Below are positions 4,459 through 64,000 of a stretch of DNA of 64,000 bases, one piece after another. How positions within the stretch are numbered: the first letter of the stretch is position 1; each line of letters begins with the position of its first letter. Source of the stretch: Apostichopus japonicus. Lineage: Eukaryota > Echinodermata > Holothuroidea > Aspidochirotida > Stichopodidae. The DNA is taken from assembly GCF_037975245.1 (NCBI RefSeq), contig NC_092577.1, positions 36,572,898-36,636,897 on the forward strand. The letters run 5' to 3'. A program made the translations under genes and the position numbers. The notes below the pieces were generated by a model. The model worked only from the letters and a program-made list of their open reading frames with translations, did no database searches and was not told the DNA's origin.

Positions 4459-6449
4459 AAAGAAAGTATGCATTAACGTGATAATACTACAGCATGTTTC
4501 CTGTGTACAAAAATTTGAACATCTTTTCCGTTGTAGGCTATAGCGATTTGCCTGTTTTGTATAACAATATCATTTTGCTATGTTTTGCCAGATAACTTAT
4601 TCCCAGACTACCGTAGTATACTAGACATGGATAAATTATATTGAGAAGCTTCAAATATCCACTCTGTTGTTTCCAACATATATCTTAGTTAGGCAATGCA
4701 GCCATACATGCAGATTAATGAATCTGTACCAAGATGGGGTTGGGATGTGGGAGGGAGGGTAAACTGTAACCATTTTATTTAATAAATATAGATAAAGTAT
4801 AGTGTAACACCAGTTAGCAAATTCAAATGACAAATTATTTTGCCTCGTTGCCATGAAGTTTTGCTGAACTGTGAAAAATGACAATTTCCAATGGCAAAAC
4901 ATTTTCTGCGCTTTTAAATATCAGTGGTTGCCATTCTTGGAGCGTAGGAGCCAAGAAGGATCAAGAATAGGGTAAGAAGATATTTACCAACCCACTCCCC
5001 AATAATTTGCCAAATTAATGTCCAAGGAGGAAATCCATTTCACATTAATGCCTCTTTGCGACATCAGTTGCACATATTTTGCCTTTGAAAATCACCAACG
5101 CAAGAAGATTTACTGGAAAATGCTGCACAGCTCCAGGATGGTTTTATCCCATGAATCCTCAGCAGGGCTCTCCTCCTAAGGGGGGGGGGGGCCTGCTCTC
5201 AGTTAACTTGATTGTTCATCTTACTGTACGTCAGTGTCCAAGTGCCAGGGGCTGTTCTTTCTATCCCCACTAACAGGTAAACTTAAGTCAAGTGTCAATC
5301 ATAGGTTTCTTCATTGACCTTCTAGCTGATCTAGACTCAGTACAGTAGATGTAGTCTAGGAGCCTGTAAGAAGTAAATACGAACTTACAGAAGAGTCCTT
5401 TTTATTTATCATCAGAGAAACAGGGAACTGAAATCGAGCTGTTCACTTTTTTGCACAGGAAAATACTTTAGTTTAGTCTGGATATATAATTATCATTTTG
5501 TAGAGTTCTTATTTACTGCTCTTTGAAAAATCATAAGAAATAAAATGCAAGTGGGTGTGCCATATTGGTTGCACTTGAAATTTAAATTTACAAAATGGTG
5601 TTGTCAATCTAAGACACGTCAAAAGTAGGATGGAGGAGTTTGGTCTGTTCATAAGTTCTGTATGGACATAATCTTATTGTGTTTCATAGATTTACACAAT
5701 AGTCATTGCAGTTGCACACAAAAGGCATTACTGGTCTTATAAGGATATCGATTCAGCCTTGATGCAAGCAGTTTTGCAGCTGCTTCAGTTTTTTTTTTTT
5801 CTTTTATTTTGTATTTAATAATACACAAACATGTGCCATTGGGGGCCTCCCAATCACCCACGTCCATATAGCACACTGATGGCATAGATGAGTATAGTGC
5901 CCCTTTCTCAATATTACACTTGATGCAGGCTATTGGCCTTTAAGTGACCAAATAATCAGGCCATTGAGAGTAATTACACCCAAGCTTATATATGCATGCT
6001 TAACCATCAACATAGCTGATCTTCAAAACAGACAGAAGAACTTGCACTTGTACAGTAGATGTTAGTTATAGCTGCTGTCAATATTTTGACAAGATGGAAT
6101 TTATTCATTCCTCTGAGGATGTAAATCAAATTGGTCATGGTCATTAGTTTAATATGTAAAGAGGATGCACTATTGAAGATGCTATTATGGGGTTGGTTAT
6201 TATAGTTATGTAGAGAGGATGCTATTAGGGATAAATGAACTAGCTTTCTTCCTGCTGCTAATCTTTAGTAATAATGACTTCTTGTGTCTTATAGGCTGCA
6301 GCCTGCTCGTTATGAATGAATGCTTCCAATTACCTCTTTTTGGTATATATTTTTGGTTGTAGTTCTAGAACCTTGTTTGTAAAAACTTCACCCTCTTAGA
6401 TGGGTATATCTTTGGGGAAATGGGAGGGGGGAGGGGGTTCCAAGGCGGT
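4459..6449. other. No gene recognised
   Basis: AT-rich sequence with a G12 run near 5180. A 65-codon frame at 5079-5273 contains CTAPGWFYPMNPQQGSP and a few cysteines, but it has no convincing acceptor and reaches a stop before the nearest donor. It is therefore not called. Probably intronic. Confidence 0.4.
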
Positions 6450-41800: not shown

Positions 41801-44800
41801 TTCCCCTTCAAAGTGATGTTACCATTTTTTCTTCTTCTAATTTACCAAATTTTTGGGGAAGTGTAAATTTCTAAAACGTGAGATTATAAAATAAAGAATG
41901 TTTAGGTGCAACTTGCAAGGCCTCAGAAGTGCCGTTTCCGGCAATCTGAGAGGCATTGTTTGCCAAAAATTTTCTTGTACGCTACGCGCCAACCGATGGT
42001 GGCGCTCCGCTTAGATAGTGTCACGGGAACTTTCGGGCACAAAAAGTTCTGCCCCCCCAAACTGAAATGGTCCCGTACGCCTATGATCTCAGGTTTGGAG
42101 GAGTGGAGGGAGAAATCTCCAAGTATAAAATGTTGTGGGAACAGGTGGGGGGGGGGGATTTGGTAAAAGTCACCGCACATTAAGGCTCACTGGGCCCATT
42201 GCCCATTATACCACTCCTAAAAGTTGCCGTCACTCTCCTTTCTAGTCATCTGCAACTATTATAACTATTCCAACCATCTCTATTACTTCTCCTAAGGGTA
42301 CATTCTTTTTTGCTGCTTCTTAACAATGAGAAGAGGAAGACACCATGTACTCACCAAACACTGAACTGTCTTTGGTGGGTAACTTGGGTGCTAAAAACGG
42401 GACTGTTGGCATAGCAACAACATCGTACGTCTTAAGGATTGCCTCATATTCTTCTCTCAGTAAACGTCTGAGATTCTGAGCTTTACCGTACCACTGGCCA
42501 GGATAGTTCTGTTTGATATATTCCGCAGATAACATAAACATCTAAATTAAAAGAGAAAAATGAACAACTCTGAATTTATGGATCCCAACTTACAACTATA
42601 TTTGTTTGATGATTTAAAGGTCATTTCATGACTTTCTAACATTACAAAGAGAAGCTATATTTGCAAGCTGTGTGGTAGAACACATTGTGGGCTGAGTGTG
42701 GCTGGTTGGCCGAATGCAGCCCTCGAGCCAATTTTCTGCCTTCAATGATAAGGTTTGCTCAACTCTAGTAATGCTGTGCACTGAATTTGAATGGCAAGGA
42801 TAGAGGGTTAGGGCATACTTGTAATCTGCCAATTTTTTGCCTTTTGCTGATTTTGAGCTCTGAGATAAATGAAGGCAACATACTATTGACAACAATTACT
42901 GTGGTAGTCTACCCGTCCTTGCATTCCACCTCACAGCTGCTATCTTCCTATTCCTACTGACCCTCCTAATATGGTTTGAAAACCATGAAATGTGTATTTT
43001 TATAAAAATACGACTACAGGCCCAGTCACCTTTTAAGGTAGGCAAATTTGATGGATATCCAAATCTCCATTCTCAAACGTTCCTTTATTGTATACACACC
43101 TATGTGTTTACACACCTATATGTTTACACACCTATGTGTTTACACACCTATGTATTTACACATCTATGTGATTACACATCTATGTGTTTACACACATATG
43201 TGTTTACACACCTATATGTTTACACACCTATGTGTTTACCTTGCCATTGTGTGAGAGATCCTTGGCTTTGGTCTTGAAAGATTTTCCAGCAAAGGCCATC
43301 ATACTTGTTGGATAGAAGCCGGAATGTCCAGTTCCACCACCTATTGTAATGTAATGTAAATAAAATCTTATATAGCGCACTACGCGCGATGCATCTGTGC
43401 GCTTTACAAACAATCTAGAAAATACAATGCCATAAAACATTAAATAGAAAAAACAGTAAATACATATACCATCTACAGAAATATACAGAAATATGAGATC
43501 GAAAAACTATTGAAAGTACTGGTGAAGCGTAAATTCGATAAAACAGATTGACTACAAAATCTACAATTTGAATGCTAAAAAGTGAAAATTGTGATCAGGT
43601 ACGTGCTACTGTATGTTCTTCAAAGGAGTGTTGCAGCATATACACTCTGAGAACCTTCACGGTCTGACTGCTGTCAAGGAGGCAAACTGCTGAGCTAGAA
43701 GGGGCCCCTAAGGGTCATGGCTGGAAGTTTTTGTGTAATAATTGATTTGTGCCATCATAACCCCAGTGAACATGGGTCTGCATCCTACCCCATTTGCAAC
43801 CACCCCCCCCCCCCTCATACCCCCTTACATTCTGAAAACTGTATCAGGCTACCTGGCTAAGCAGTCCCTCCTTGAATGTCTGTACAATCACACCTTTTGC
43901 TTGCTTCATTTCTAGCCACTTAAAAGTGTATATTTATTTTAATTTTGTGATACCATGATAATTAAAACATGAATGTAGAAAGAGTCAGACATTTACCACC
44001 ACAGTTGAACATGTTATCAAAGGTTCCTTCACAGGCTAAGCATTCCCAAATAGCGCCACCTTTTGAGAAATGGGAGAGACACAGATCAGTAAGCTAGTAT
44101 TTCTCACAGGCTAGTCCTTTCTTTTACAAGACGGCCACTTGTTAGGATGTTATGTACGTTATATTGTGGTCAGGGGTGTACTGTAGTACCAGTGACGTGA
44201 GGTTAATACTTCAATAAAAACATAACTAACTAAAGTTGAGCTCTTATATATGATATTTTAGTTTCTGACATTTATAGGCAAATATGCTGCAAGTCAAGAA
44301 ATCGGTTATGTCTGGCTTGACCCTTAATGAGACAGGATACTACTAGAGATGTTTGTTTGAGCAAAAAGGCATTTTGAGAATTGCAGATTAAATAAATAAA
44401 AATCACGTTTCTTTATCTACCGACTGGTTGACATGCATGTCTGCAATAAGGTACACTTTAAGTTTTTTAACTTGAAAGCCAGACTGATAATGTTCAACAG
44501 CAAATTAGGTTTTGTTTTCAAAAGATCTACATTTTATTAAAAGGCAAAGCTATACTTCACCAGGGTAAATTAAACAACTTTACTAAAAACTAATATATTG
44601 AAAGGTCAATATACAGATATAAATGACTTAAGATCTGCTTCCTAACTGCACTTTTTTTTAGCTGCTAGTTTAAGTGAACTTTTCTGTTAAAACAGGATGC
44701 TAAGGAAATCATTCTGAAGAGGTCTTGTGTCACAATTAGGAATGTATCCCGGGGTTTGAGTCAAATTAAATCTTCCTTAGCTGTTTGACACTGTACAGGA

Positions 44801-47800
44801 TTAACTGACATGTCCTAATCATAGTATGTTAATACATTTCTATGCGTGTACCAATTAGGCCAGGACAGAGATGTGTGCTTTCCAATTACTGAGTGTGGGC
44901 CAGGGGTTAAGTTAGTGATTTCAGTGATTTGCATTAAGCATACACAAAAAATTGGAGATAATGATACCGGAAATTTTCACATGGACCTAGCCATTTCATT
45001 TTCAAACATAGTTGGCTATGGAGTGGGGAGGAGTGGGCATGTGTGGGGAGGAGTGGGGAGGGTAACTCACTTTCCCTTCTTCTTTATTACCATGGATCCT
45101 GTTCTGACCCCCTCCTGATGAGAAGTCACATAAATATTTAGGAGGTAGACAACTTGAAATTCAATAAATACACAATTTATATTGAAATGCATATAATAGT
45201 GACATTATTATCTATTAAAGTTGGAATTTTTTTTTACTTTTTGGAGAAAAAAGGTTGCGCTTAGAATATCCAGCTTGATGTCTGAATGCAAACAACACAT
45301 TCCAAAAATTTCATAGCTACTGCTAGCCAGAAATAATCATGTGGCTTGTTGATCTGATCAAATGCAATTCAACAGAAACAACATAGGTTATTGATCAAAT
45401 GCACTTCGACGGAAACAACATAGTTTGTTGATCAAATGCACTTCAACAGAAACAATGTAGTTTGGTGATAATCAAATTTGCATTTAAATAACAACAATAG
45501 TATTTATCATGCCGTGAATTACTGGGTATAGCTCCAACAATCTTAACTTGGCAAATAAGTAATATACAAGTCACATGAAGCTAGAGGTGAAACAGTTTCA
45601 CATAAGTCTAGACTCTTTGGTGCATAAGTACATAACTTGTTAAATAACTATTTAAAGCTTAATAACCTAATTGCACATTGATAGCTTAGAAGACAAAAAC
45701 ACTTTATTTGTGCAGATTATTGCACTAAATATGTTGAATACTCCTAGTGCACGTGAAGTGCAGCATGGTCCAAAGAGCTACCAGAGACATTTTAGTTTGA
45801 AAATATGAAGTGATGACAGTTTACTTACTGTAATTCAACATTGGTATTGAGACTTCCTCCACCTCAGCCCCAGCTTGTTTCAACGCCATGATGGCGCCTC
45901 TCACCAGATCGTTAACATAGTGGTCAGAGTGGGGCCAGTTGAATCCCTCTGACACGAGACCAATCTTCAATCCTGATATGTCGAAATCTTCTATCTGAAA
46001 GTAACATTTATGATGTTTCATTATATAATGGGTATAAGTATATATGTAACAACATACAAGAAATGACACAAAAGATAAATGCATAGTATATGTAGCATAC
46101 CCCATAGTGTGGCATAGCAAGGAGCAACTAGGTGCACCAATAGAAATGGGCCCCTAAGAACAGTCCACAACCATGGTTTGGACTTAGATGAGCAATGTTA
46201 GATATTGTGCACCTTTATATGCCCAGATATGCACTCACAATTAGCTATCTCATGTTGACTGAGGACTGGATTTCCAATTGATATGATTGCTTATTTCTTA
46301 TAATTATGTAATACGTATCCTTTCGAACGTAACCAGTTTGAGAATAACACAAAATAATATTCCTACTAGAATTTACTACCAATTTAATTTTGTTTTGAGC
46401 GAGCCCTATAATTTCAAATTGGAATCTTCTGAATGAAGAGAATTCAGCTACCACAGATTTGGTCTATTCCTGTTAAAACATCTGCAAATTTAGTTGTCAT
46501 GGTTAAGGAAATTAAAAGTGCCATGAAGGACAAAATTGCCAGCTAAATGATGAAAATATCTACAACGGTTAACAGACCACACTACTTTGATGATTTAGTG
46601 TGCTTATGCAAGCTAATGATCAGGTTTATAAACATTGTTTGATGGTATGCTTGTACAAGCTAATGAGGTTTGATGAAGCATTTCCCAATTATTTAGGAAC
46701 AAACTTTAAAGTTTGTGTATATTTGGTGCTCAGGTTGCCATCATCATGATTTTGTTTTAAATTTGGATTTTAAACATAAGTTTATGAAACCTTAGAGAAG
46801 TGTCAGATCGGATTATTTGCTGTTGGTGTTTGTTGTTTGCTGATTGGATGCTGTTGTCAAAGTGAATCGATTTTCCTGGTGTAAAACAAAGTATCCGGTT
46901 TCTGGTTTACAAGTGATACAAGCTTCAAATTCAATGTAAATGTGCATGATTATAAGAGAAAAATACCAACCTCTTTTGAATATTCATGACATGGTAATAT
47001 GCTTGGTTGGCGTGGATCAAGCCCATTATCATATCCAGCAAGTACCTGCAGAAAATGTAACAACAAATGAAACACGTCCATCTGAATACAAATATCCAAT
47101 CTATCATTCACATATGATCCAAAGGTGATGTTCTTGTTTGTGAAGGATTCTTTTGTACTTGACATGCATTTCCCTTCCAGATATAACATTAATTTGCCTG
47201 CAGGACTGTGATAATAAGGTGATGAAATTTATATTAACTGAGCATGTATATGGATATGCACTGGTTTATTTTCAATTTCAGCCTACCTGCAGGACTGTGA
47301 TAATAAGGAACTTTAAATTAACGGAGCATGTATAGGGATATGCACTGGTTTATTTTCAATTTCAGCCTACCTGCAGGACTGTGATAATAAGGAACTTTAA
47401 ATTAACGGAGCATGTATTGTATAGGGATATGAACTGGTTTATTTTCAATTTCAGCCTACCAAACTCCATGAAGTTGAGGGAGAGAAACCTGGCAAATTTT
47501 GTTATCAAGACCATTCACAAAGTGGTTCGCACACGGAATCTAAGATTTATCCAAACATATTTGTCTACTTTCAATTCACTTTCCCGGTGGAAGTTTATCA
47601 TTGAAAGCTCTATGGGAGCTCGCGAGTGAGAGAACACATTATACAAGCACTTAAAAGGGAACAGCTTTAAACCACCTGGTCATTCACACATGCATATAAG
47701 AGGGCTAAATTTGTCACAAGTTTGCATATTCCTTTACTGTCAATGAGACCCTAATTACTATAGTATAGGCCTATATTAGACAATGTTTTGCTACACCATT

Positions 47801-50800
47801 TCAATTAACCAAATGAATTAACAATCTAAGGATTGCGGGGTGGAGTCCTGGCCGGATCATTACGTTCATCATACATGAATAAGGGTGTGAATCATACATG
47901 AATTAGGATGTGAATCGTACATGAATAAGGGTGTGAAATTAGGGTGTTTATCTTGCATGTATTGACAGACATTGACACCGGCTTGCTTATTCAGTTAGTA
48001 CATAACAATACCTCCAACAGTAGAGCACAGTCATGGACGGTTTTTGCCATCGGACCTAAATGATCCAATGATGGATCCATGGACATAGCACCAGTGTAAG
48101 GTACCAATCCAAACGTTGGTTTCTGTCCCACGATGCCACACCATGCTGCTGGAATCCGTATTGAACCCCCTTGGTCTCCGCCGATTGCCAGGTCAACAGC
48201 ACCGGAAGCTACCTGCATGTGAAATAACATGCTACATTGTATATGTCACCAGAAGCTATTTGCAACATGTGCAAAACGCATGAAAGAAATGACACAAAAC
48301 ATCTTTAAATTGACTGATCGATTGCATACCGAAGAGGTCGTTTTTTAGGCTTGAAAAACTAGTCTAATTGGTGGCAGGTTAATAGACCATGCTTCATTTT
48401 CATGAATTTTAGGACTTACGATTAATGCATATAACTATTTCTGAAATCTACCGATATTTGTGCTACTTAACCTCACAATATGGGATTATTGAAGAGAGCT
48501 TGTAGAGCTATTTTGTGAGCAAAAAAATCTACTGTTTAAAGGAAAATGAGAGTAAAAACAAATAAATCTTATCCAAGTTAACAGGACACAAGTATTTCAC
48601 CCGTCCAAATTGTTGGTGCCCCTCCTTCAATTGTTGGTCCCCCTTCAACTCCTGGCTATGACCCTGCATCCAGCCCCTTCTCCCTCCTCCTCTCCACCCT
48701 ATCCCTCTCAACAAAAAACAGGTGAATAATTTCTAAATGATATCATAAGCCATTTATTCAATTTTACACAAGTTAAACAATTAAGTTCTGCACAAGTTTC
48801 TTAACTTGCACAATGCACTTAAAATGGGTTTTTTTTTCACCACAACAATATGCTAGTGAGCTACGCTGAGCTAATGAGCTACGCTAAGCTACGTTGAGCT
48901 GCTGAGCTACTGAGCTACGCTGAGCTAGTGAGCTACGCTGAGCTAGTGAGCTACGCTGAGCTAGTGAGCTACGCTGAGCTAGTGAGCTACGCCGAGGTAG
49001 TGAGCTACGCCGAGCTACTGAGCTACGCCGAGCTACTGAGCTACGCCGAGGTAGTGAGCTACGCCGAGCTACTGAGCTACGCTGAGTATAGTGAGCTACG
49101 CTGAGCTAGTGAGCTACGCTGAGCTAGTGAGCTACGCTGAACTAGTGAGCTACGCTGAGGTAGTGATCACGCTACGCTGAGGTAGTGAGCTACGCTGAGC
49201 TAGTGAGCTACGCTGAGCTAGTGAGCTACGCTGAGCTAGTGAGCTACGCTGAGCTCGTGAGCTACGCCGAGGTAGTGAGCTACGCCGAGCTACTGAGCTA
49301 CGATGAGTATAGTGAGCTACGCTGAGCTAGTGAGCTACGCTGAGGTAGTGAGCTACGCTGAGCTAGTGAGCTACGCTGAGCTAGTGATCACGCTACCCTG
49401 AGGTAGTGAGCTACGCTGAGCTAGTGAGCTACATTGAGCTACGCTGAGCTACTGAGCTAAGCTGAGCTACTGACTATACTAGTGCACATAGGATGTTGTT
49501 TTGAACTTCACCCCATTATGGCATATCTGTTGTGAAATGTGCAAATTACACGATATTGGGCATTTCAATAGGAAGAGTTTAGTCTGGACCAGAAAACAAT
49601 TCAGGGCTTCACAAGCTGTTAATCATTTTGAGAGGTAGAGAACAAATAGTACCAGTGCTGCACTTCCCCCACTGGAACCCCCTGCACTGTGGAGAGGCTT
49701 AACAGGATTCCTGATTGTCCCTTTCCCAGAGGTGAAACTGGATCCAGAAAAGCACAGATTCTCGCAGGCTGCCTTACCGATGATATGACCACCTGAACGA
49801 AATGAAGAAACAGAAGGAATGATCAAAAGTGATTTTGTCACATTAATTATGTCTTTCATCATAATTGAACCCCTCGTAGTTATTATGCTTGCATCCTAAT
49901 GAGACAAAATGGCAACATGTTATTTACTGCATGTATGTGGATGGATATCTGTCCCCAGTACACTTTCAGCAGGTGTTGTTTCAGAGCTGAGTTAATCCTG
50001 ATCTGTCAACGTTCATGTATTTTCCATCTCAGCTGTTTGTTGCATCTTAGCCTCCTACCAAGAATCTCCGTATTGGAGCTGGTGCAAGGCTCTAAACACT
50101 GTAGAATACAATTTCATTCCACCAGATATTCAGTAAATTTAACACTAAGATTTCCGGTCCAAGGGTAACAATCCATATTCAGCTCTCTTTGCTATCCTCC
50201 TCTCGACAAGCATCTCCCAGCCCTCTTCTTCCCTTCTCCACTTGTCTCACATTGCTTTGAAGTTTGGATCTTGCAAACCAAACCAAGATCAGAGATATTT
50301 ACAGCCTGGAAAATAATCATAGTAAATGACATATAAATGCATTATAATATATATATTATACTCTCAAAGGTAAAGTGTGCTTCCAATTCTGTCTCTCTTC
50401 CAGCCTACTGTACAACCCCTTTCTTAATTTCTCTACCCTTCCTTCCCCAACTGTAGCTTCTTACCTGTATCCCTCCAACTCACGCACTACCCTCCTGCTG
50501 GCAACACTTTCCATCTTCAATACCCCTAGTACCATGGGCGGCGATCATGGGGGGGGGGGGGGACGGGGGGACATGTCCCCCCCCCCAATATTTTTGTTGG
50601 GGGGATATAGTATCTAATATCCCCCCCAATATTTGGTGGCATAGTTTTTTTTTTAAGCATATGTTTTGTATTTTTTTATGATATCGCTAGTAATTTCAAA
50701 ATAGAAAATGCTTAGATGCAACTTAAAAGGCCTGGGAAGTGCCATTTCCAGCAATCTGGGAGGCATTTTCGGCCAAAATTTTCTTTTGCGCTTCGCGCCA

Positions 50801-53800
50801 ACTTATGGTGGCGCTAGGCTTAGATAGTCTGGGTACAAGCTTTGCCCCTCCCGTGGCAAATTCCTCACAAGGCGCCTGTTTAACTGTGTCACAATTTGTT
50901 ACTATAAATGACCGAAAGTAGTTTTTACTTTTTTTTCGAAATGAATAGCTAGACGGACCGCATCCGTAATGAAATTTGGTTGGAATCTTGTGTATGAGTG
51001 TAAGTACGTACAATCACACATATGATCCACATCGATATGGGTTCACTGGGTTTCCATTTGGCCTGTTTCCTACAAGATTTCTAACCGCAGGTGCTTAGCC
51101 AAGGGAGGGGGGGGGGTGAAGGGTGGAGACCGCCCTCCCCCTCGAGCATATTTTTTTGGTATTTTCTATGATATCGAAGTTTTATAGTAGCCGTTATAAG
51201 AGGTTTCAATATTTTTACACCAATAATTTAACTGTGTCTGAATTTTCGAAAATTCTTTGAACAACATTCTTCATCATACTTCCCACAGATCTACTCGTGC
51301 AATTTTGACCGGTCTGTTAGGGGTTGAGGGGGGGTTTTCTATATTGGTTGTCCATAGATTAAATTTTGTGCAACATTATGGGTATGTTTTGAAGTGAATT
51401 TATTATTCAAATTCTGAACAAATAATGGGCTTAAAACCATGAAAAGTGGGGCTGACGGGTATTAAGGGGCGTTACGTAGAATTACCTACAAAAGCAATGA
51501 TCCACAGGGGATGCAATGAGGTCGAACATGATGTGTGACTGGTGACAATCTTGAAAAAATGTATGATAAATGAAGAAAAAAATCTATTAGGTAAAACTTG
51601 GTTCTCAGGCAAAAGTGCACATCTGGTTGGTCATTTTCAAGCCCGAGAAGTGCCATTTCCAGTGATCTGGGGGCTATCAAAACCAAAAATGTTCTTGTAT
51701 GCTGCGCGCCAACCAATGGTGGCGCTCCGCTTTGATAGTAATTCGCCTGCATCCAAGCAAATGTCCCCCAATATTTGAAACAGATCGCCGCCCCTGCCTA
51801 GTACCTCCTTTAACTTCCTCCCTACTTCAGACCCATCGAATCCTACCGTCCCTCCTTCCATGAGCCACCGCTCTCCTCCAAACACTCCTGATACCAATAC
51901 TTTGTTCTTGCTGTCCATAATTACTCATACCTTCGTCCAAAATTCTTGTAACTACCGAAGCATCAAACTCTGGCATGTATCCCTCTAATGCACCACAACC
52001 ATTCATCATGGGAACTCCAGCTACTGCTATGTTATCTTTGATGGCCACGGTCTTCCCTGCAAGTTTCCCATCCTCTGCGCCTTTAATGTCTGTTTTCCAG
52101 TACCTGTACATAAATAAACATTCTCTCTTTTTGCATGCAAACGTCAAAGGGGATGCACCAATTTAAAACCTCTGTCTGGGTGATATGAACTCAGAATGTA
52201 GAGAAAACATTTGAAAATAATTACACCCTCAGGGATTAAACAAACCTTCTTAATGGACCAGATAGTCCCTAACAATTATGCTCTTCCCCTACCCCATTAA
52301 TATTTTCACTCCTCCCCCTCACCCTTCCCCAACCCCTCACCTTCAGGTTGGTTTTAAGATGTACTGGGCAGAAACAAATGAGTACTAATGTGTGACTGCA
52401 TCGGTTCATTAACTATTCCTTCAGTATTACACAGAAAATTACTTACGTTATTGAAGCTTGAAATTTCTCAAAGGGGAGCTCAGGTGGACAGCCTCTCCCC
52501 TTACACCCCTCCCCCAGGCTGCCATGTTCATTACTTAAAATCCAACCCTTCCCTCCTCCCTTTTATCTATAGGCATGACTATTGAAATGTATTACAAACC
52601 ATCTATTCAGAGGGCTGTCTTTAGCTGTTGGTCTAGTGCCTGGTGTCCGAGGATACTTGACTGGTAATGTTGGTTCCACCAACCCTCCCCCCCCCCCCCT
52701 TGTATATAGGCATGACTATTAATACACACCATCCATTAAGAGGGTTGTCTTTAGCTGTTGGTCTAGTGCCTGGTGTCCGAGGATACTTGACTGGTAATGT
52801 TGGTTCCACCAACCCTCCCCCCCCCCCTTGTATATAGGCATGACTATTAATACACACCATCCATTAAGAGGGTTGTCTTTAGCTGTTGGTCTAGTGCCTG
52901 GTGTCCGAGGATACTTGACTGGTAATGTTGGTTCCACCAACCCTCCCCCCCCCCTTGTATATAGGCATGACTATTAATACACACCATCCATTAAGAGGGT
53001 TGTCTTTAGCTGTTGGTCTAGTGCCTGGTGTCCGAGGATACTTGACTGGTAATGTTGGTTCCACCAACCCCCCCCCCCCACCCCCTTGTATATAGGCATG
53101 ACTATTAATACACACCATCCATTAAGAGGGTTGTCTTTAGCTGTTGGTCTAGTGCCTGGTGTCCGAGGATACTTGACTGGTAATGTTGGTTCCACCAACC
53201 CTCCCCCCCCCCCTTGTATATAGGCATGACTATTAATACACACCATCCATTAAGAGGGTTGTCTTTAGCTGTTGGTCTAGTGCCTGGTGTCCGAGGATAC
53301 TTGACTGGTAATGTTGGTTCCACCAACCCCCCCCCCCACCCCCTTGTATATAGGCATGACTATTAATACACACCATCCATTAAGAGGGTTGTCTTTAGCT
53401 GTTGGTCTAGTGCCTGGTGTCCGAGGATACTTGACTGGTAATGTTGGTTCCACCAACCCTCCCCCCCCCTTGTATATAGGCATGACTATTAATACACACC
53501 ATCCATTAAGAGGGTTGTCTTTAGCTGTTGGTCTAGTGCCTGGTGTCCGAGGATACTTGACTGGTAATGTTGGTTCCACCAACCCCCCCCCCCACCCCCT
53601 TGTATATAGGCATGACTATTAATACACACCATCCATTAAGAGGGTTGTCTTTAGCTGTTGGTCTAGTGCCTGGTGTCCGAGGATACTTGACTGGTAATGT
53701 TGGTTCCACCAATCCCCCCCCCCCACCCCCTTGTATATAGGCATGACTATTAATACACACCATCCATTAAGAGGACTGTCTTTAGCTGTTGGTCTAGTGC

Positions 53801-55634
53801 CTGGTGTCCGAGGATACTTGACTGGTAATGTTGGTTCCACCAACCCTCCCCCCCCCCTTGTATATAGGCATGACTATTAATACACACCATCCATTAAGAG
53901 GGTTGTCTTTAGCTGTTGGTCTAGTGCCTGGTGTCCGAGGATACTTGACTGGTAATGTTGGTTCCACCAACCCTCCCCCCCCCCTTGTATATAGGCATGA
54001 CTATTAATACACACCATCCATTAAGAGGGTTGTCTTTAGCTGTTGGTCTAGTGCCTGGTGTCCGAGGATACTTGGCTGGTAATGTTGGTTCCACCAACCC
54101 TCCCCCCCCCCCTTGTATATAGGCATGACTATTAATACACACCATCCATTAAGAGGGTTGTCTTTAGCTGTTGGTCTAGTGCCTGGTGTCCGAGGATACT
54201 TGACTGGTAATGTTGGTTCCACCAACCCTCCCCCCCCCCTTGTATATAGGCATGACTATTAATACACACCATCCATTAAGAGGGTTGTCTTTAGCTGTTG
54301 GTCTAGTGCCTGGTGTCCGAGGATACTTGACTGGTAATGTTGGTTCCACCAACCCCCCCCCCCACCCCCTTGTATATAGGCATGACTATTAATACACACC
54401 ATCCATTAAGAGGGTTGTCTTTAGCTGTTGGTCTAGTGCCTGGTGTCCGAGGATACTTGACTGGTAATGTTGGTTCCACCAATTTGTCGATGGTATCATA
54501 ATTTTCGCAAAATTTCTTCATGAAACTCTGGTATTGTTTCAGGTCTTCTGTTCCGTTCAACTTTAGACCTAGCTTTGTTGATATATTTTCCAACTCTTTC
54601 AGAGACGGTGGCCTAATAGAAGGTTCATTATAAACTTGATCTGGGTAACAAAGTTTACAAGAAACTTATTAATAAGCTGATATAAATTTGTTCAATTAAT
54701 GTATATAGCCAGGGGAGATCCAAGGAGGCGACCCAGGCCCCCATTTCTGTTTTTTATGGCCCTTTTATCATAAAAAATACACTTTGAATAAGACAGAATT
54801 AAATTAACGTTCATGGCAAGCTATGCTTAGATCATTTATAAATCCATAGTTCAGCACAGACCTTCAAAATAATGATATAAATAGGCCAGTGATATAGGCT
54901 TGTACATATGCACATGTCTACCGTATTCAGCCAGTAATATAGGCATTACTGTATATGTACAGCCGTTTTCCTACAAATTTTTTAGTTTTGCTGTCGCAGT
55001 ACCACAGCTATATGGATTCATAGGCGTAGGAGGCGGGGCTGCAAATATTTTTGTGAATTTGCAATGTGTTTTCAATGGATAAACTTATATTATTATCATT
55101 ATTATTGTAACGACTTCCCGAATAATTATAACCAATATGGAAGGGTAATATTACGGAAAATGATTGTATGTTATTGCCATGCGATGTAATAAGCGATGTA
55201 TGCCTATATGATATTCAAAATAACACGTCGAACGCGCGCGGAGCGCCCGAAAAATATTGGTTATATATTTTGCGGGCAAGTCGTTACAGCCCCCCCCCCC
55301 CAATCAAATTGGGCTCATACGCCTATGTATGGAATCAATTTCCTATCCAAAACAGACCCTGGGGCGAACCGTGTCCGTTGATGTTAAGTACACATTATAA
55401 TCGCTCATTTTTTTTGGTAGAATTGAGTTACTATTAATGTTGTCTAGTTTCCAACTGAACGCATGCAATGATCAATTGCATATTGTTTGATATGTAAAGC
55501 AACACTTTATTACTTACCACCAGACACGGACATTTCAGATGTTGGATATTGATTGCTCGAATCTCGGATATCAGACATATGTTCCTCGATATCAGTCGTA
55601 CGTTCTGAATATCAAGTTCATAGACTTCTTCTGT
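38684..55634 (-). CDS. Amidase-signature family amidase, complete 11-exon gene
   Basis: Eleven exons with GT/AG borders and compatible phases join into 1551 coding bases (516 residues). The start is the ATG at 55533, because the preceding frame is closed and only this start joins exon 2 in frame. The family hydrolyses amides to acids and ammonia through a Ser-cisSer-Lys triad. Here Lys108 lies in the KDNIAVAG motif, Ser183 in [10 protein letters not shown] and Ser207 in [13 protein letters not shown]. The spacings of 75 and 24 residues equal those known for FAAH (142/217/241). The DQGGS form, an N-terminal IRPPS motif, YPRTPG..P...NPLNGWYW and VPYTGA...DHLGP point to the Rhodococcus-type aliphatic amidase subfamily (EC 3.5.1.4-like) rather than FAAH or GatA. 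No signal peptide or membrane segment is seen, so it is probably cytosolic. Substrate is unknown. Introns carry several minisatellites and nested hAT elements. Confidence 0.93.
38880..40486. other. Amidase intron 10, unique part
   Basis: AT-rich intron sequence without recognised coding content. A degenerate GGATGATGA-type G-rich stretch lies at 39955-40095. Confidence 0.5.
40543..40684. repeat. Long perfect hairpin, two 63-bp arms
   Basis: The arm from TTTCCAGAGGACAAGAAATT to GAGGAGAAA (40543-40605) is repeated as its exact reverse complement at 40622-40684 around a T-rich loop of 16 bases. It lies just inside the left end of the hAT element at 40495. Confidence 0.95.
40875..41532. mobile_element. 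Nested hAT MITE, CAAGGGCGGC ends
   Basis: Ends CAAGGGCGGCGGAA and TTCTGCCGCCCTTG are flanked by ACCTAGAC (40867-40874) and ACCTGGAC (41533-41540), 7 of 8 alike. A G8-CAC...GTG-C6 hairpin follows the left end. It interrupts the element 40495-42085, so it is younger. Confidence 0.85.
42355..42541 (-). CDS. Amidase exon 10 (residues 393-455)
   Basis: Acceptor ttaatttag before 42541, donor TTTG|GTGAGT after 42355. It encodes [20 protein letters not shown], then [20 protein letters not shown], the P-T-x-P region conserved near the C-terminus of the family. Phase 0 in, phase 1 out. Confidence 0.94.
43090..43240. repeat. 16-bp minisatellite starting at the exon 9 splice donor
   Basis: On the minus strand GTAAACACATAGGTGT repeats about nine times; the first unit is itself the donor of amidase exon 9. 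Each further unit keeps a GTAAACA-like donor core. Confidence 0.93.
43240..43340 (-). CDS. Amidase exon 9 (residues 359-392)
   Basis: Acceptor ttacaatag before 43340, donor AAG|GTAAAC after 43240. It encodes [20 protein letters not shown] and ends DLSHNGK, phase 0 out. The donor is the first unit of a 16-bp minisatellite and the acceptor lies at the end of a retroelement-like tail (see findings). Confidence 0.88.
43341..43440 (-). mobile_element. 3' tail of a retroelement next to exon 9
   Basis: On the minus strand TTGTAAAGCGCACAGATGCA and GTGCGCTATATAAGATTTTA lead to (TTACA)n. This resembles the GCGCTATATAAAT-plus-short-repeat tail of L2-like LINEs and related SINEs in aquatic animals. The tail runs directly into the exon 9 acceptor. 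Confidence 0.5.
43997..44059 (-). CDS. Amidase exon 8 (residues 338-359)
   Basis: A 63-base exon with acceptor ctcaaaag and donor GGTG|GTAAAT. It encodes [20 protein letters not shown]. The IW....EG....M...G pattern fits the same position in bacterial homologues. Phase 1 at both ends joins exon 7 and exon 9. Confidence 0.88.
45340..45470. repeat. Short tandem repeat, about 41-bp unit, three copies
   Basis: TGATCAAATGCACTTCAACA with GAAACAACATAG(T/G)TT repeats three times in amidase intron 7. Confidence 0.85.
45829..45994 (-). CDS. Amidase exon 7 (residues 283-338)
   Basis: Acceptor ttactttcag before 45994, donor TACA|GTAAGT after 45829; phase 0 in, phase 1 out. It encodes [19 protein letters not shown] and the helix [20 protein letters not shown], the usual segment after the catalytic core. 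Confidence 0.93.
46971..47045 (-). CDS. Amidase exon 6 (residues 258-282)
   Basis: A 75-base exon, phase 0 at both ends, with acceptor ttctgcag and donor GAG|GTTGGT. It encodes [15 protein letters not shown], which continues the LLLEV.AG.D..DPRQ stretch conserved in Rhodococcus-type amidases. Confidence 0.92.
47195..47465. repeat. Tandem repeat, about 90-bp unit, three copies
   Basis: GCAGGACTGTGATAATAAGG, ATTAACGGAGCATGTATA and GGTTTATTTTCAATTTCAGC repeat three times in amidase intron 5. Confidence 0.93.
48012..48212 (-). CDS. Amidase exon 5 (residues 191-257, nucleophile Ser)
   Basis: The acceptor acatgcag precedes 48212 and the donor GAG|GTATTG follows 48012, phase 0 at both ends. It encodes [20 protein letters not shown] with the nucleophile Ser207, then the subfamily motifs [12 protein letters not shown] and [18 protein letters not shown]. 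Confidence 0.96.
48852..49478. repeat. 18-bp minisatellite GAGCTACGCTGAGCTAGT, about 34 units
   Basis: The unit repeats with small variants (CTGAG/CCGAG, CTAGT/GTAGT/CTACT) through most of amidase intron 4. Units are built from an AGCT-centred 9-base half unit. Confidence 0.97.
49653..49792 (-). CDS. Amidase exon 4 (residues 144-190, GGSSGGS signature)
   Basis: The acceptor cgttcag precedes 49792 and the donor CTG|GTACTA follows 49653. It encodes [17 protein letters not shown] and ends with [13 protein letters not shown], the amidase signature with the cis-Ser (Ser183). Phase 1 in, phase 0 out. Confidence 0.95.
50534..51797. mobile_element. Composite hAT element with CTAGTACC target duplication
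   Basis: Ends ATGGGCGGCGATC and GATCGCCGCCCCTGC with an exact CTAGTACC at 50526-50533 and 51798-51805. A G14-ACGGGGGGACATGTCCCC hairpin follows the left end. Inside are a CAGGCGCGTAG-family copy (to about 50880) and a block shared with 1.15-1.7 kb. It lies in amidase intron 3, about 130 bases from exon 3. Confidence 0.88.
51931..52103 (-). CDS. Amidase exon 3 (residues 86-144, catalytic Lys)
   Basis: The acceptor tgtacag precedes 52103 and the donor GAAG|GTATGAG follows 51931. Phase 2 in, phase 1 out. It encodes [20 protein letters not shown] followed by [15 protein letters not shown]. The Lys of IKDN is the general base of the amidase triad (Lys108). Confidence 0.95.
52570..54482. repeat. 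Exon-derived minisatellite: about 15 tandem copies of the exon 2 end plus splice donor
   Basis: The unit of about 124-132 bases holds the last 83 bases of amidase exon 2, its GATG|GTGTGT donor, CATGCCTATATACAAG of intron 2 and a G-run of varying length. The copy at 54400-54482 is part of the true exon. The rest fill intron 2. Copies are nearly identical (rare changes, such as VK to AK near 54075 and N to S near 53765); the leftmost copy (52570-52690) is most diverged. Confidence 0.97.
54400..54640 (-). CDS. Amidase exon 2 (residues 6-86)
   Basis: The acceptor ttacccag precedes 54640. The donor is GGATG|GTGTGT after 54400, ending in phase 2. It encodes the N-terminal helical region typical of this subfamily ([12 protein letters not shown], then [19 protein letters not shown]). 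The last 83 bases (54482-54400) are also the exonic half of the tandem array that follows in intron 2. The copy here is the one continuous with the unique exon sequence. Confidence 0.92.
55019..55327. mobile_element. hAT MITE in amidase intron 1
   Basis: Ends CATAGGCGTAGGAGG and CATACGCCTATG with TATGGATT (55011-55018) and TATGGAAT (55328-55335), 7 of 8 alike. Internal GCGCGCGGAGCG block is shared with the related element at 1718-2149. Confidence 0.85.
55518..55634 (-). CDS. Amidase exon 1 (5' UTR plus residues 1-5)
   Basis: The acceptor tttttcag precedes base 55634 and the donor GTAAGT follows 55518. The ATG at 55533 opens MSVSG plus one base, which joins exon 2 in phase 1 to give [18 protein letters not shown]. 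Because the exon has its own acceptor, at least one further untranslated exon should lie upstream (to the right), which I could not locate. Confidence 0.8.
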
Positions 55635-55639
55635 CTGAA

Positions 55640-56335
55640 AAATGATATGCCTATTCTATACTGGAGCTTTCCAAATAAACAAATAAAGATTTGATGAGGG
55701 TTAAAGGTTGTTTAAAGTGTTTACAGCTACCTCGATTTCTGCTCTTATTATTTATTTATTAATTATTTATAAAACAGGACGATAATATTTGTATGGTCTG
55801 TCTGGTTCAAGGCTCATATTTGTTAACAAGTTTGCCGTATATACAATGGCAGTTGGTGTAGTAGAGCTACTGCATACAGTTAACACCACCGAAAATTGGT
55901 TGCTCATATATTGTACAATATTGTTGTTCCTTCCAACAGCGGCGAAGTCGGAGGGGTCGAAACGGAGACGAAAAAATGCACGCACGAAATCAGTCATATA
56001 TAGGCTATTGGCAAGCTAGTTGTACCATGGAGCTATAAATAGCTCCATGGTTGGACTACTGCTAGACGAATGTGCTAAAAAGGAAATTATGGCACAGGTT
56101 TACAGTTAAGACTTTCCAAAACAAACATTTCCCCTTAGACCCCTCAGCTAGTAGAATGAAAACGGTTAGTGAAATTTCATGTACCAGCCCCTCCCCCAAA
56201 TACCAAATCGAGACATATGATAGACTAGAGCAGGTGCAAAAGCAAGTTATTACTTCTGGTAGACTTCACGCTAGAAAAATCAATCCGGGACTCAATTTCT
56301 AAAGAACATTACATAGGCTAAGCCTAAACATATAA

Positions 56336-56338
<3 letters not shown>
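55640..56338. other. Region upstream of amidase exon 1
   Basis: No coding sequence recognised. The promoter and a further 5' untranslated exon of the amidase gene are expected here or further right. It contains the CCATGGAGCTATAAATAGCT palindrome at 56026-56051. Confidence 0.4.
56026..56051. repeat. 26-bp palindrome sharing its motif with 24802-24867
   Basis: CCATGGAGCTAT and ATAGCTCCATGG flank a two-base AA centre. The same CCATGGAGCTATAAA half-site builds the larger palindrome 31 kb away. Confidence 0.85.

Positions 56339-56388
<50 letters not shown>
56339..56388. repeat. (AT)n microsatellite, about 50 bases
   Basis: Uninterrupted AT dinucleotides directly abut the CAGGGGCGTATCC end of the element at 56389. 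Confidence 0.98.
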
Positions 56389-56391
<3 letters not shown>

Positions 56392-56882
56392 GGGCGTATC
56401 CAGGATTTTCTAACCGGGGGGCGCGAATTACTATCTTAGCGGAGCGCCACCATCGGTTGGCGCGCAGCGTACAAGAAAATTTCTGGTTTTCTGGTGTTAT
56501 GATAGACCATATATAGTATATAATATATAGATACATTAGTGAGAGAGGAAAAATGGAAACGTCAAAATGGAGTTGTCGGTGTAAGGGGTAGGGTGAGGTG
56601 CACGCCCCTTCCGAAATCCTCGATCCGTCACTGGCTACCCTGTGTTTATAATAGGGATCAGCGCTATAATGATGTCACTGTTCCTCGTTCTCTTCCCGAT
56701 GTCTTGGCGTTTTTCTTTTACTCCCTCCTCTTCTCTCTTTCTTCTTTTTCTCTTCCCTTCCTTCCTCTCCTCCTCCTCTTTTTTCCCCTCTTTTTTCCCC
56801 TCTTTTTTCTCCTCTTTTTTTCTCTCCTCTTTTTCTTACCCGTGGGGCGCGCGCCCCCAACACTCCCCTGGATACGCGCCTG
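56389..56882. mobile_element. Deleted derivative of the 1042-2981 type element
   Basis: Ends CAGGGGCGTATCCAGG and CCTGGATACGCGCCTG. The first 100 bases match 1042 onwards and the rest matches 2598-2981, so a central segment is missing. No 8-bp duplication (ATATATAT / GTTTTGGA). Contains the same pyrimidine tract (56690-56840). Confidence 0.8.
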
Positions 56883-56939
56883 GTTTTGGACGCGGTTTTG
56901 TTCATCCGCCAATATTTGTCTGTTTATTGCTAATTAAGT

Positions 56940-57990
56940 TGGTTGGGTGCGTGGGGGAAAAAACCTGATTTGCAGTTTTTGCCAAAACAAAAATCGATCC
57001 AAAATCGATTTCGCCCAAATGACGTAACAGGGGTTAACCGATGCTCAGGAGCCCAAATTTGCAACTCCCAGGTCCATATCTGCTTCCGTTCGGGAGATAC
57101 GCGGTCCCAAAGGACCCGATAGAAATACGTGTTCTTTATAAGTGCACAATTTGGAAAACCCCCTCTTTTCAGCCCCCTCACTTGTCCTCTCTGAAACACC
57201 CATCGACATTAAAATTAGACGTGGAGTAGAAGACACCCTTGTCTTTGTTATACACCAATTTCGTGTAATTATCTGACCGGGAAAGGCTTTTTGTTTATAT
57301 GATTTCTATTTTTTTCATAAATCATAAATCAGGTTTTTTGCCCCCTGCACGCCCCCACACAACACCCAATTCTAGAATAAACTTCAGATTCGTAATTAGC
57401 GTGTCGCGAACTACCAGAAAAGATACACATTTATCGCCTTTGCGATAAATGTTTTTTCACCTAAAAAAACACGTAGGCCTAAGGGATACGCACCTCTTGC
57501 AGTTTTTGCCAAAACTGACACATTTATTCGTAAATGTCAAGATAAAACTCAAGATGACAAATTTGATTTGACTGCTTTGAAATCACGTATCACTGGCAAG
57601 ATGCGTCGAGCACCCTCTTATGACACTTATTTCGCTCAGTTTGCAACTTCAGAGGAACAATAGAAAACCGAAAAACTTTTAGGGACAACAAAAGGTTTGA
57701 TAACCTTTGTTCGTCGTAAAAGTTTTTCGGTCTTACTTTTCTTTGAGGTAAATATTTTTTGTCGCAAAAGCGATAAATGTGTATCTTTTCTGGTAGTTCG
57801 CGTTGTGTGGGGGCGTGCAGGGGCAAAAAACCTGATTTGCAGTTTTTGCCAAAACTGACCAAAAATCGATTCAAAATCGATTTCCCCCAAACAGGGGGTA
57901 ACCTATGCTCAGGAGCCTAAATTTGCAACTCCCGGGTCCATATCTGCTTCCGTTCGGGAGATACGTGGTCCCAAAGGAATCTGCCTAGCC
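56940..57990. repeat. Repeat complex with direct and inverted copies
   Basis: A segment with GATTTGCAGTTTTTGCCAAA, CGATTT and TGCTTCCGTTCGGGAGATAC occurs at 56965-57120 and 57829-57985 in direct orientation. Between them 57405-57444 is inverted at 57763-57802 (39 of 40 bases), and GGGGGCGTGCAGG is inverted too. Possibly a foldback element. Confidence 0.8.
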
Positions 57991-58009
57991 CTCCAAAAGA
58001 TTTTATTGA

Positions 58010-58605
58010 TAAGATCCAAAGTACTATTTTTGATTTATTTCGAACGGGAAAACTGATAAAGTAAGGAGACTTACTATGTTTAACCCCATTGAAAAGGGAG
58101 GTTTAAAAATCATATATGTTCACAGCTTTGTTGGTGCTCTCAAAACCTCTTGGGTCAAGCGTTATTGTGATAATGCCAACACGGGGTATATTGGAAGCTC
58201 CTTTTTTCATTCCTCTCTGTCGCCGTCCGGTAAAGAGTTGCCTTTTAATTGTAATTTTCATGACCAGGATATTTCCTGTATATGAAAATACCTTCATTGG
58301 ACAAATTTGTATGGTTTTGAGTAATCTTAGCTACCTTTAAGAAGCCTTCGGAAGACTTGGGTGAGCAAATCCCCAATAATTTTATTAGAATTGATAATAC
58401 CATTGTTTATGACAAAAAGCTTTTACGACGCTGGTTTACTGTTTGTTAGGGATATGTCGTTGCCAGATTGGAAGCAATTGTCCAAATAATGCTTTTCTGA
58501 CCAGTCTTTTACATTGTTAGGCTATTGTATGCTTTTATAGAAGACTTCCTTTCACATTGTATATTTGGACGTGAAAATAAATAAATCAAATCAAATAACT
58601 AATAA
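58010..58605 (+). mobile_element. LINE fragment, L1-like 3' part
   Basis: The frame NPIEKGGLKIIYVHSFVGAL then KTSWVKRY matches the KGGL(K/R)M..I.SF..ALK.SW..R motif after the reverse transcriptase in L1/Tx1-type LINEs. Stops and frame changes follow, and the sequence ends in AATAAATAAATCAAATCAAAT-like tail near 58580-58600. Confidence 0.7.
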
Positions 58606-58616
58606 TTATTTCTAAA

Positions 58617-58960
58617 CAGTTACAGTGGTTAGTGCTATGTACTTAGAAAGTAAGACAAACTCTCTGTCTAGAATTCAACTCCCAGAGGATGTATTGATTT
58701 GGTATTTCTTTTCCTCATTTTGCAGTTAAAATGTTAGAAAAGCCTATCATTTCTCAATTAACAGTTACTATGGCGCAGTTGTTATGTTGTAAAATTTTGC
58801 ATATTTATTATTGTTTTCTACAAAGAAATTGTCAATAAACTGAAAGAAATGAGACATACTCCTTGTCTTGAGTTCAAACACCAGAGGATGCATCTGATTT
58901 TCTATTTATTTGCCTCCTAATGTTGTGAAGATTAAATATTAGAAACGAATATTAATTCTC
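58617..58960. repeat. Diverged flanking copies of the tRNA-like array
   Basis: Segments at about 58617-58690 and 58765-58890 keep CAGTTAC..TGGCGCAGTTG, GACAAACTC and CCAGAGGATG pieces of the 163-bp unit, strongly decayed. Confidence 0.6.
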
Positions 58961-60180
58961 AACAGTTCTAGTGGCGCAGTTGGTAGTGCTCTGGACTGGA
59001 GAGACACAGACAAACTCCATGTCTCCGGTTCGATCCCCAGACAGAGCATTTTGATTTTCTGTTCTTTTCCTTCTTCCATTCTGGACTTTGAAGTTTAAAT
59101 ATTAGAAACGAGCACTCATTCTCAACAGTTCTAGTGGCGCACTTGGTAGTGCTCTGGACTGGAGAGACACAGACAAACTCCATGTCTCCGGTTCGATCCC
59201 CAGACAGAGCATTTTGATTTTCTGTTCTTTTCCTTCTTCCATTCTGGACTTTGAAGTTTAAATATTAGAAACGAGCACTAATTCTCAACAGTTCAAGTGG
59301 CGCAGTTGGTAGTGCTCTGGACTGGAGAGAGACAGACAAACTCCATGTCTCCGGTTCGAACCCCAGACAGAGCATTTTATATTTTTGCTCTTTTACTGAT
59401 TCCATTCTGGACTTTGAAGTTTAAATATTAGAAACGAGCATTAATTCTCAACAGTTCTAGTGGCGCAGTTGGTAGTGCTCTGGACTGGAGAGACAAACTC
59501 CATGTCTCCGGTTCGATCCCCAGACAGAGCAAATTTTTTTGGGCTCTTTTATACTGATTCCATTCTGGACTTTGAAGTTTAAATATTAGAAACGAGCACT
59601 AATTCTCAACAGTTCTAGTGGCGCAGTTGGTAGTGCTCTGGACTGGAGAGAGACAGACAAACTCCATGTCTCCGGTTCGAACCCCAGACAGAGCATTTTA
59701 TATTTTTGCTCTATTACTGATTCCATTCTGGACTTTGAAGTTTAAATATTAGAAACGAGCATTAATTCTCAACAGTTCTAGTGGCGCAGTTGGTAGTGCT
59801 CTGGACTGGAGAGACAGACAAACTCCATGTCTCCGGTTCGATCCCCAGACAGAGCATTTTATATTTTTGCTCTTTTACTGATTCCATTCTGGACTTTGAA
59901 GTTTAAATATTAGAAACGAGCACTAATTCTCAACAGTTCTAGTGGCGCAGTTGGTAGTGCTCTGGACTGGAGAGAGACAGACAAACTCCATGTCTCCGGT
60001 TCGATCCCCAGACAGAGCATTTTATATTTTTGCTCTTTTACTGATTCTATTCTGGACTTTGAAGTTTAAATATTAGAAACGAGCACTAATTCTCAACAGT
60101 TCTAGTGGCGCAGTTGGTAGTGCTCTGGACTGGAGAGAGACAGACAAACTCCATGTCTCCGGTTCGATTCCCAGACAAGC
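58960..60180 (+). repeat. Tandem array of tRNA-like units, 163-bp period, eight copies
   Basis: Units begin at about 58971, 59134, 59297, 59460, 59618, 59781, 59942 and 60105. Each carries a box A-like GTGGCGCAGTTGGTAGTGC (a good D-arm) and box B GGTTCGATCCC, then a spacer ending GAAGTTTAAATATTAGAAAC. The T-stem and acceptor stem do not pair and the anticodon loop lacks the usual T33, so these are tRNA-derived rather than ordinary tRNA genes. Unit differences are small insertions in the variable region (GAGACACAGAC, GAGAGACAGAC, GAGACAAAC). Confidence 0.88.
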
Positions 60181-62634: not shown

Positions 62635-62933
62635 TTACTTTTCACCCCCACTCCACCATCCATGCAGGAACCCACCCAAACCCCCCTGCGCGGCCGATTT
62701 ATTCTGTTTCAGTTTCTCGTCCAAGGAGGGAAACTCTATATGGTTCAGCACTATGTCAAAGAAGAGCGGTTTGCACGGTGACAGCTTTAAGTCCGGTGGG
62801 AATGCCGTGAAGTTGGGCTTGGCGGCAAGGTCCGGCTGGTTGGCGTTGTACCGGTCCAGCCTTTCCACCAGCGGTTGATTGTCCTTCAGACCGAGTTGCG
62901 CCATTCCTTTGCTGATGGAAGGTTCACTGGAAT
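62635..62933 (-). CDS. SRP68: SRP68 signal recognition particle protein, last coding exon
   Basis: The acceptor attttcag precedes 62933 and the frame ends at TAA 62637-62635, giving 98 residues. The stretch DRYNANQPDLAAKPNFTAFP and PPDLKLSPCKPLFFDIVLNH match the C-terminus of animal SRP68 as I know it, followed by IEFPSLDEKLKQ. SRP68 with SRP72 binds 7SL RNA and targets ribosomes making secretory proteins to the ER; this C-terminal part is the SRP72-binding region in the family. The tail after the conserved core (GGLGGFLHGWW) is Gly-rich and ends SGGEK. Earlier exons are expected beyond the right edge. The first two bases belong to a codon split by the preceding intron. Confidence 0.9.
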
Positions 62934-62939
62934 CTGAAA

Positions 62940-64000
62940 ATTAACGCAAAGAGTTTCTTGGTAAGCCATGGCCTTTTTTTTAAAGTATTCTTGGGTGGAG
63001 GGTATTTTCTATGGGTGAGAGTAGTCGGAGGGTGGGGGAAGTCAATTCAATTAATTGTGAGAAATGTCATTCAATTAGGAACCACATAAGGCCTATTCTC
63101 ATCTTTGTAGTAAGTTTGTCAGCTTGAGCTACCTGACAGTTCATAAGTAGGGGGGTATATTGGAGTGGAATTTGAGATTTGAATCCCTGAATAGAGAAAG
63201 TTTACAAAACTTGATAATTTGCAGTCATTTTTTGTTGTTGCTGTCACAAACAGAAATGGATACCCACTTTCTATTATTTGGAGAAGACAGAAACTGGTTC
63301 ATTCGAAGTCTACAAGGCCAGATACACTCTTTTTATTTTGGCTTTCAATTTCTTTATTCTGACAAATTTCGATAGTACAAAAAAACAGCATTTTTGATAG
63401 GGCTTTTGATACTTCCTTGTGATCCCTGGACATCATACATTCAGCTACGAGCAAAAATAACTGTTGTCTGTCCTGTCCACTACAATACTCCTATTGTAAT
63501 ATTTTCACACCCTAAGGGCTAATAGGTCTCTCCACCCCCCCCCCCCAAAAAAAGGGGTGAAAAGGGGCGGTGCTGCTTCCAACTGAATTAATCTTTTCAC
63601 TCATTGTTTAACAAAAGAGAAAAATTTGGGAAAGAAAACAACAGATTATTAATATAAATGCCATGTTTCTCTGAATCATTGTCTATGCTCTGATGGAAAA
63701 CATTTGTTCCAGTAGCAGGGTCAATTCCCAGGTTCCAAATGGACTCGGCAGTTTAATCTAGTGCATTTTCCTGACGATCAGACCCAAAAGAGAACATCGA
63801 TATGTCTCTCCACCGTTATCCCAAAGAAGAAACCTTTCAGAAACTCAAGGGTACTAAAGGAATTTCAAACTAACCAGGGTCCTGCACAAAAGTAACAGGG
63901 TAGTAGCATGATGGTCTCTGCCTGATTCCCCCTCCCCCAACCCTATTTCTTTTCTTAATTTTTTGGTATTCATCCTTTCATATATAGTCCATCTTGCATT
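62940..64000. other. Probable SRP68 intron
   Basis: No further exon was recognised on the minus strand. The sequence is AT-rich with a C12 run near 63535. The preceding SRP68 exon is expected beyond the window. Confidence 0.4.

Follow-up and report, generated by a model that had tools for sequence, protein, structure and literature searches.

Results

An amidase gene on the minus strand of the window

We analyzed a stretch of 64,000 nucleotides, hereafter the window (C17:36572898-36636897), from a genome of 671,581,487 bases in 35 contigs. The minus strand of the window carries an amidase gene, and our model of it covers exons 2-9, with the first exon and firm ends beyond exon 9 lying outside it (Table 1). 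When exons 2 and 3 were joined, their product was colinear with PRK07235 (NF005565, E 5.5e-47) and with PDB 3A1I/3A1K (E 1.9e-21), and the junction between the two exons lay in register. The limits of exon 2 (54640-54400) and the start of exon 3 (52103) agree with those placed by the initial annotation. A single open frame runs across exons 2-7, and its product aligned to residues 8-320 of 3A1K (E 1e-94) with both GGSSGGS and GGSIRIPA present. The match to NF005565 (PRK07235) covered positions 2-320 of the 506 in the profile (E 1.7e-142) and scored 475.7 bits against a cut-off of 545, the query protein being partial; PF01425 was matched by two of three single frames. Colinear homology (PRK07235 and PF01425) and the signature motifs of amidases are both found in the host gene, and the gene looks intact over the part traced.

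Exon 8 was placed by eye. A family search with its 33 residues alone returned no match, and one small exon upstream of it is probably missing from the model. The coordinates listed for exon 9 are the limits of the open frame that contains it, with the 3' end of the exon left unset. At window positions 62638-62940 the minus strand, which also carries the amidase gene, encodes the C terminus of a homologue of SRP68 (PF16969, E 2.7e-10).

Table 1. Features of the amidase gene and of the array in intron 2 (window positions; a slash marks the splice junction).
Feature	Position	Strand	Remarks
Amidase exon 2	54400..54640	-	acceptor TTTGTTACCCAG/ATCAAG, donor TGGATG/GTGTGT; homology across junction
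Amidase exon 3	51931..52103	-	acceptor ATTTATGTACAG/GTACTG
Amidase exon 4	49653..49792	-	encodes GGSSGGS
Amidase exon 5	48012..48212	-	encodes GGSIRIPA
Amidase exon 6	46971..47045	-	
Amidase exon 7	45829..45994	-	
Amidase exon 8	43240..43340	-	by-eye placement
Open frame containing amidase exon 9	42323..42541	-	matches PRK07235 380-439; acceptor TTTAATTTAG/ATGTTT
Repeat copy 1	54353..54482	-	130 bp: real exon end, donor and 47 intron bases; T-type G tract
Repeat copies 2-14	52683..54352	-	126-131 bp each, within intron 2; 83 exonic-like bases and donor GATG/GTGTGT
Repeat copy 15	52546..52682	-	diverged edge copy, donor GATG/GTTTGT; ends at GGGAAGGG before TTGGATTTT
TTGG after copy 15	52542..52545	-	same as TTGG at unit start in exon 2 (54482-54479)
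Starts of units 1-8	54482, 54352, 54225, 54097, 53970, 53843, 53712, 53582	-	
Starts of units 9-15	53456, 53326, 53198, 53067, 52940, 52812, 52682	-	

The end of exon 2 and its donor form a 15-unit array

From position 54482 down to 52546, the minus strand consists of 15 head-to-tail units, each of which repeats the final 83 coding bases of exon 2 with a donor and 43-54 bases of the intron. Tandem Repeats Finder (TRF) reported the array as a 127-bp unit in 14.7 copies (52593-54482, 97% matches, score 3528). Units were counted from the TTGG that stands 83 bases upstream of the exon 2 end. On this count units 1-14 measure 126-131 bp. The 83 exonic bases are followed in each by 30 intronic bases and then by a G-rich tract whose length varies, the intronic part amounting to 43-48 bases per unit. 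The final 83 bases of exon 2 are themselves the exonic part of copy 1. The unit sequences, once checked, bore out the initial annotation, which had described the exon 2 end, its donor and adjoining intron bases as amplified into a 15-unit minisatellite in intron 2. Its further statement that every unit offers the same donor is true of 14 of the 15 copies, which carry GATG/GTGTGT, but not of copy 15, in which the site reads GATG/GTTTGT.

The 113-base core (83 exonic and 30 intronic bases) is identical in 12 of copies 1-14, with copy 4 differing at one base and copy 6 at two, and the mean pairwise identity of these 14 cores is 0.996 (91 pairs). Such uniformity agrees with the recent spread or homogenization that had been proposed. 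Copy 15 shows three exonic differences and a longer, diverged intron part, and its length is 137 if its end is set before the next TTGG. Among the copies we counted six exonic substitutions in five codons, four of which change the residue; an N-to-S change in the conserved NPLN motif occurs twice. The copies that lie beyond the exon appear to have changed free of coding constraint. The G tracts of copies 1-14 fall into two interleaved types, in the order T A A A A T T A T A T A A A, and the T type is common to the real exon copy and copies 6, 7, 9 and 11. Inspected by eye, the exonic-like part of each unit is preceded by a G tract and no pyrimidine tract. In line with the earlier description, copy 1 alone lies on an exon with an acceptor, and the later copies have, by eye, no upstream acceptor of their own.

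Later donors lead to a stop in the allele as assembled

An exon 2 that is read through remains open across the intron part of unit 1, after which the frame shifts on entering copy 2. Because unit 1 is 130 nt long (1 mod 3), exons extended to any of the 14 later donors all meet the same stop, at 54305 in copy 2. Thus, in its assembled form this allele should not yield the in-frame read-through products that had been thought possible.

Of all bases in an assembly, those of homopolymers are the least certain in number. With unit 1 set to 129, splicing from donor 2 to exon 3 gave no stops in 180 residues, and full read-through stopped in copy 3; with unit 1 set to 131, full read-through stopped in copy 2. 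A unit whose length is a multiple of 3, such as unit 8 with 126, stays open in the amidase frame. The proposal that the length of the G run decides whether the frame is kept therefore stands for donor 2, which opens when unit 1 is 129 long, but not beyond donor 2, where the stop in copy 3 intervenes. A change in the G run of unit 1 could thus allow one in-frame product, that of donor 2.

Predicted U1 pairing is equal across copies 1-14

The donors of copies 1-14 have a predicted U1 pairing of -6.6 kcal/mol and that of copy 15 one of -6.1. Better pairing than that of the donors is predicted for two further GTs, which lie at the unit border (-7.0 and -7.3). Since the values for copies 1-14 are equal, the later donors are not weaker than donor 1, and given also the two better border GTs, this measure fails to single out donor 1. 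Among the 999 GTs that the same strand has elsewhere than in the array (window 39001-59000), 50 paired at least as well as donor 1. The units furthermore contain G runs of 3-13, and a G-quadruplex pattern matched nine times in the array on the transcribed-sense strand. From exon definition and by analogy with the lancelet cases discussed below, we infer that donor 1 is the donor used.

Discussion

The array resembles the mirages of amphioxus

The founding paper on mirages is said to be that of Canestro in 2002. Mirages are tandem repeats of amphioxus that span exon-intron boundaries, and the definition used here, taken from PMC3087553, also includes undisturbed regular splicing and a copy number that varies between haplotypes or in the soma. 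They have been described in Adh3 and the globin genes BflGb6 and BflGb9 (PMC3087553), and in PGBD5 and TnC (PMC3902484). In BflGb9 the duplication, with a unit of 157 bp, takes in the 3' border of exon 2, and in BflGb6 units of 150-160 bp, six and three on two haplotypes, form clusters whose edges escape homogenization (PMC3087553). Data on Adh3 and RT-PCR of the globins suggested regular splicing, with cryptic use of the splice signals in the units held possible (PMC3087553).

The amidase array has the same architecture. Its copies 1-14 combine exon sequence (83 bases), a splice site and intron sequence (43-48 bases). One edge copy, copy 1, is an authentic exon border, namely the 3' end of exon 2, with its junction in register with amidases. 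The inner copies are homogenized and a cluster edge is excluded, copy 15 having diverged and the exon-side copy 1 not. Amphioxus mirages likewise consist of tandem units that carry the end of an exon and the splice site there, and their edge copies are left outside homogenization (PMC3087553), and BflGb9 shares with the amidase array the donor side (PMC3087553, PMC3902484). The differences lie in copy number, 15 units versus six and three in BflGb6, in the G-tract tails, which vary unit length and frame, and in the host. The reported range of mirages, which is outside their structural definition, is the cephalochordates, whereas the host here is probably an echinoderm. Contig C35 (16,099 bases) carries genes that, named by eye, read cox1, nad4L, cox2, atp6, cox3, nad3, nad4, nad5, nad6 (minus) and cob, with nad1, nad2 and the large rRNA on the cox1 strand, an order of echinoid/holothuroid type. 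A literature search by title and abstract found no report of exon-border arrays in echinoderms. The amidase array is a new case of a known phenomenon, probably in a new phylum.

Repeats at or near exon borders have been described in other settings. Human segmental-duplication genes carry minisatellite repeats at exon-intron boundaries, where 162 alignments yielded 27 intron modifications after inspection (PMC2812944). Minisatellite expansion takes place there as in the amidase array, and the authors see in it a route to new introns, but the human units average 30 bp in four copies, lie in young paralogues and come with transcript evidence (PMC2812944). Intron creation by tandem duplication of AG/GT segments (Rogers; Gao and Lynch; Zhuo et al., cited in PMC3087553) draws on the same raw material; in contrast to that process, the amidase array shows no new intron, its copies lying within an existing one. 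Intron minisatellites are described for an earthworm metallothionein, without exon-border units in the parts examined (PMC12783039).

Proposed origin and significance

We consider it very probable that a mirage-type minisatellite was seeded across the border of exon 2 and intron 2, was homogenized, and is spliced out from donor 1, most likely as a neutral element. Tandem arrays of any period make up 18.6% of the bases of the window, so an occasional seed that spans an exon border is to be expected. The founding duplication would have joined the TTGG in exon 2 to the intronic TTGG about 137 bases downstream, and this 4-bp match may tentatively be taken as candidate microhomology. Unequal exchange or slippage, in further rounds, would then have expanded the exon-proximal units to 14 nearly identical copies, with copy 15 at the edge remaining diverged. 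The interleaving of the G-tract types, with the T type including the real exon copy, points to exchange along the array.

Because an upstream acceptor and a real exon are present only at copy 1, the exon would be defined there, and splicing from donor 1 (54400) to 52103 would take out intron 2 together with every other copy. In the assembled sequence, a message spliced from any later donor would carry an early stop. Spliced out in this manner, the array would be tolerated and most likely neutral, and it probably leaves the protein unchanged.

If the species assignment is right, a clean and long donor-side mirage in a second phylum, the Echinodermata, would mean that mirages are not a lancelet oddity. 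Moreover, with 15 near-identical donors in one intron, the array offers a natural test case for spliceosome choice when 5' splice sites are identical, and it supplies material for the route by which tandem duplication is proposed to give rise to new introns. Apart from these points, an array such as this one is unremarkable where minisatellites are dense. We think it very improbable that echinoderm genes, too, often contain exon-border minisatellites and that the G run of unit 1 is a splice switch tuned by slippage. Were this true, the length of that run would determine whether donor 2 yields a 43-residue in-frame insertion or an early stop, and somatic or population variation would alter amidase output.

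Alternative explanations

The array might instead act as a regulator, its repeated donors and long G tracts recruiting U1 or hnRNP H-like proteins to the nascent RNA and thereby setting the amount of functional amidase, with the stop-bearing products of later donors degraded. Roles of such recruitment are known from vertebrate work. The equal predicted U1 pairing of 14 donors, the G runs of up to 13 and the nine G-quadruplex matches fit this reading, as does the early stop that follows from all 14 later donors as assembled, which poison splicing needs. However, substitutions in the exonic-like copies alter amino acids, and lancelet mirages are reported not to disturb splicing (PMC3087553, PMC3902484), even if cryptic use is considered possible in the former paper; a regulatory array is in our judgment improbable. 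That the copies serve as alternative or additional exons, or that read-through lengthens the protein, is scarcely credible. A unit with a length that is a multiple of 3, as in unit 8, is open in the amidase frame, and donor 2 with exon 3 would be free of stops were unit 1 129 long. Against this, unit 1 is 130 long and the copy 2 stop lies in the path of all 14 later donors, full read-through would end in copy 3 or copy 2 at lengths of 129 or 131, and by eye a G tract takes the place of a pyrimidine tract before each exonic-like part.

We give equally little credence to an assembly artefact with inflated copy number. Short-read assemblies are error-prone at tandem arrays, but the assembly of A. 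japonicus was built from PacBio HiFi reads at 64-fold coverage with a mean read length of 14.7 kb (PMC10344927). If the genome analyzed here is that assembly, its reads far exceed the 1.9-kb array, and since the genome appears to fit it, an invented array of this size is unlikely. The copies, furthermore, are not all identical, and their variants are interleaved. Another reading accepts the array and gives its position a cause, in that minisatellites of this genome would be attracted to donor sites, with exon borders preferred as seeds rather than hit by chance. It draws on a second array in the amidase gene, a 16-bp unit in 9.4 copies (43089..43239, minus strand) that begins at the first intron base after exon 8 (AAG/GTAAACACATAG...). 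In the block 42330-54640, two of eight arrays touch a donor and none an acceptor. When these eight arrays were placed at random in 4000 trials per version, however, at least two touched a donor in 51% of trials if any place was allowed, and in 14% if at most 83 exon bases could be covered. Non-random siting of arrays at donors is therefore not significant by random placement, and we hold such attraction to be unlikely.

Tandem arrays in the wider sample

To the share of the window in tandem arrays corresponds 11.2% in 200 kb taken at random from the same contig, a figure that includes one stretch consisting wholly of satellite. Prevalence was assessed in 303,801 bases, comprising the window, 20 random 10-kb stretches of C17 and four other stretches (the two window flanks, one of C20 and one of C1). 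This sample held 116 tandem arrays, and the single one to score above the amidase array was a 22-bp satellite. Such a 22-bp satellite fills an entire 10-kb stretch at 26.5 Mb of C17 (L018, 1-10000). With that satellite excluded, 35 arrays of period at least 40 were screened by scanning 83 distinct edge frames with Pfam, and ten of these frames were rescanned singly. At E 0.01, 18 Pfam families were matched, each in one member. No second exon-border array was recognized among the 83 edge frames, in a screen in which the positive control, the frame of amidase exon 2, was also without a Pfam match. The zinc-finger matches all fell in one frame (L031:2273-2737) and represent a natural tandem domain. 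The PF18280 match in L034:6416-6880 was taken as a sum over repeats, no single stretch passing, and the remaining weak families had E values of 0.0015 or worse. The array of L024 is donor-like (CAG/GTAA) and shows by eye no coding sign.

Several other arrays were observed in passing. A 45-bp unit in 22.9 copies (L034, 4159-5187) overlaps an open frame on the minus strand (4371-5267) without a Pfam match and is possibly a coding repeat. In the window, a 163-bp unit in 7.7 copies (58926-60177) contains by eye a tRNA-like stretch, for which neither ARAGORN nor Rfam at gathering score made a call; Rfam gave no matches on the whole window. The units of the array after exon 8 (43089-43239) carry sites like ATAG/GTGTGT, with a likeness to the exon side that is weak by eye. 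Finally, the intron that precedes amidase exon 6 contains an 84-bp unit in three copies (47197-47460), whose CCTGCAG/GTAGG resembles the acceptor of that exon, TCTGCAG/GTACTT.
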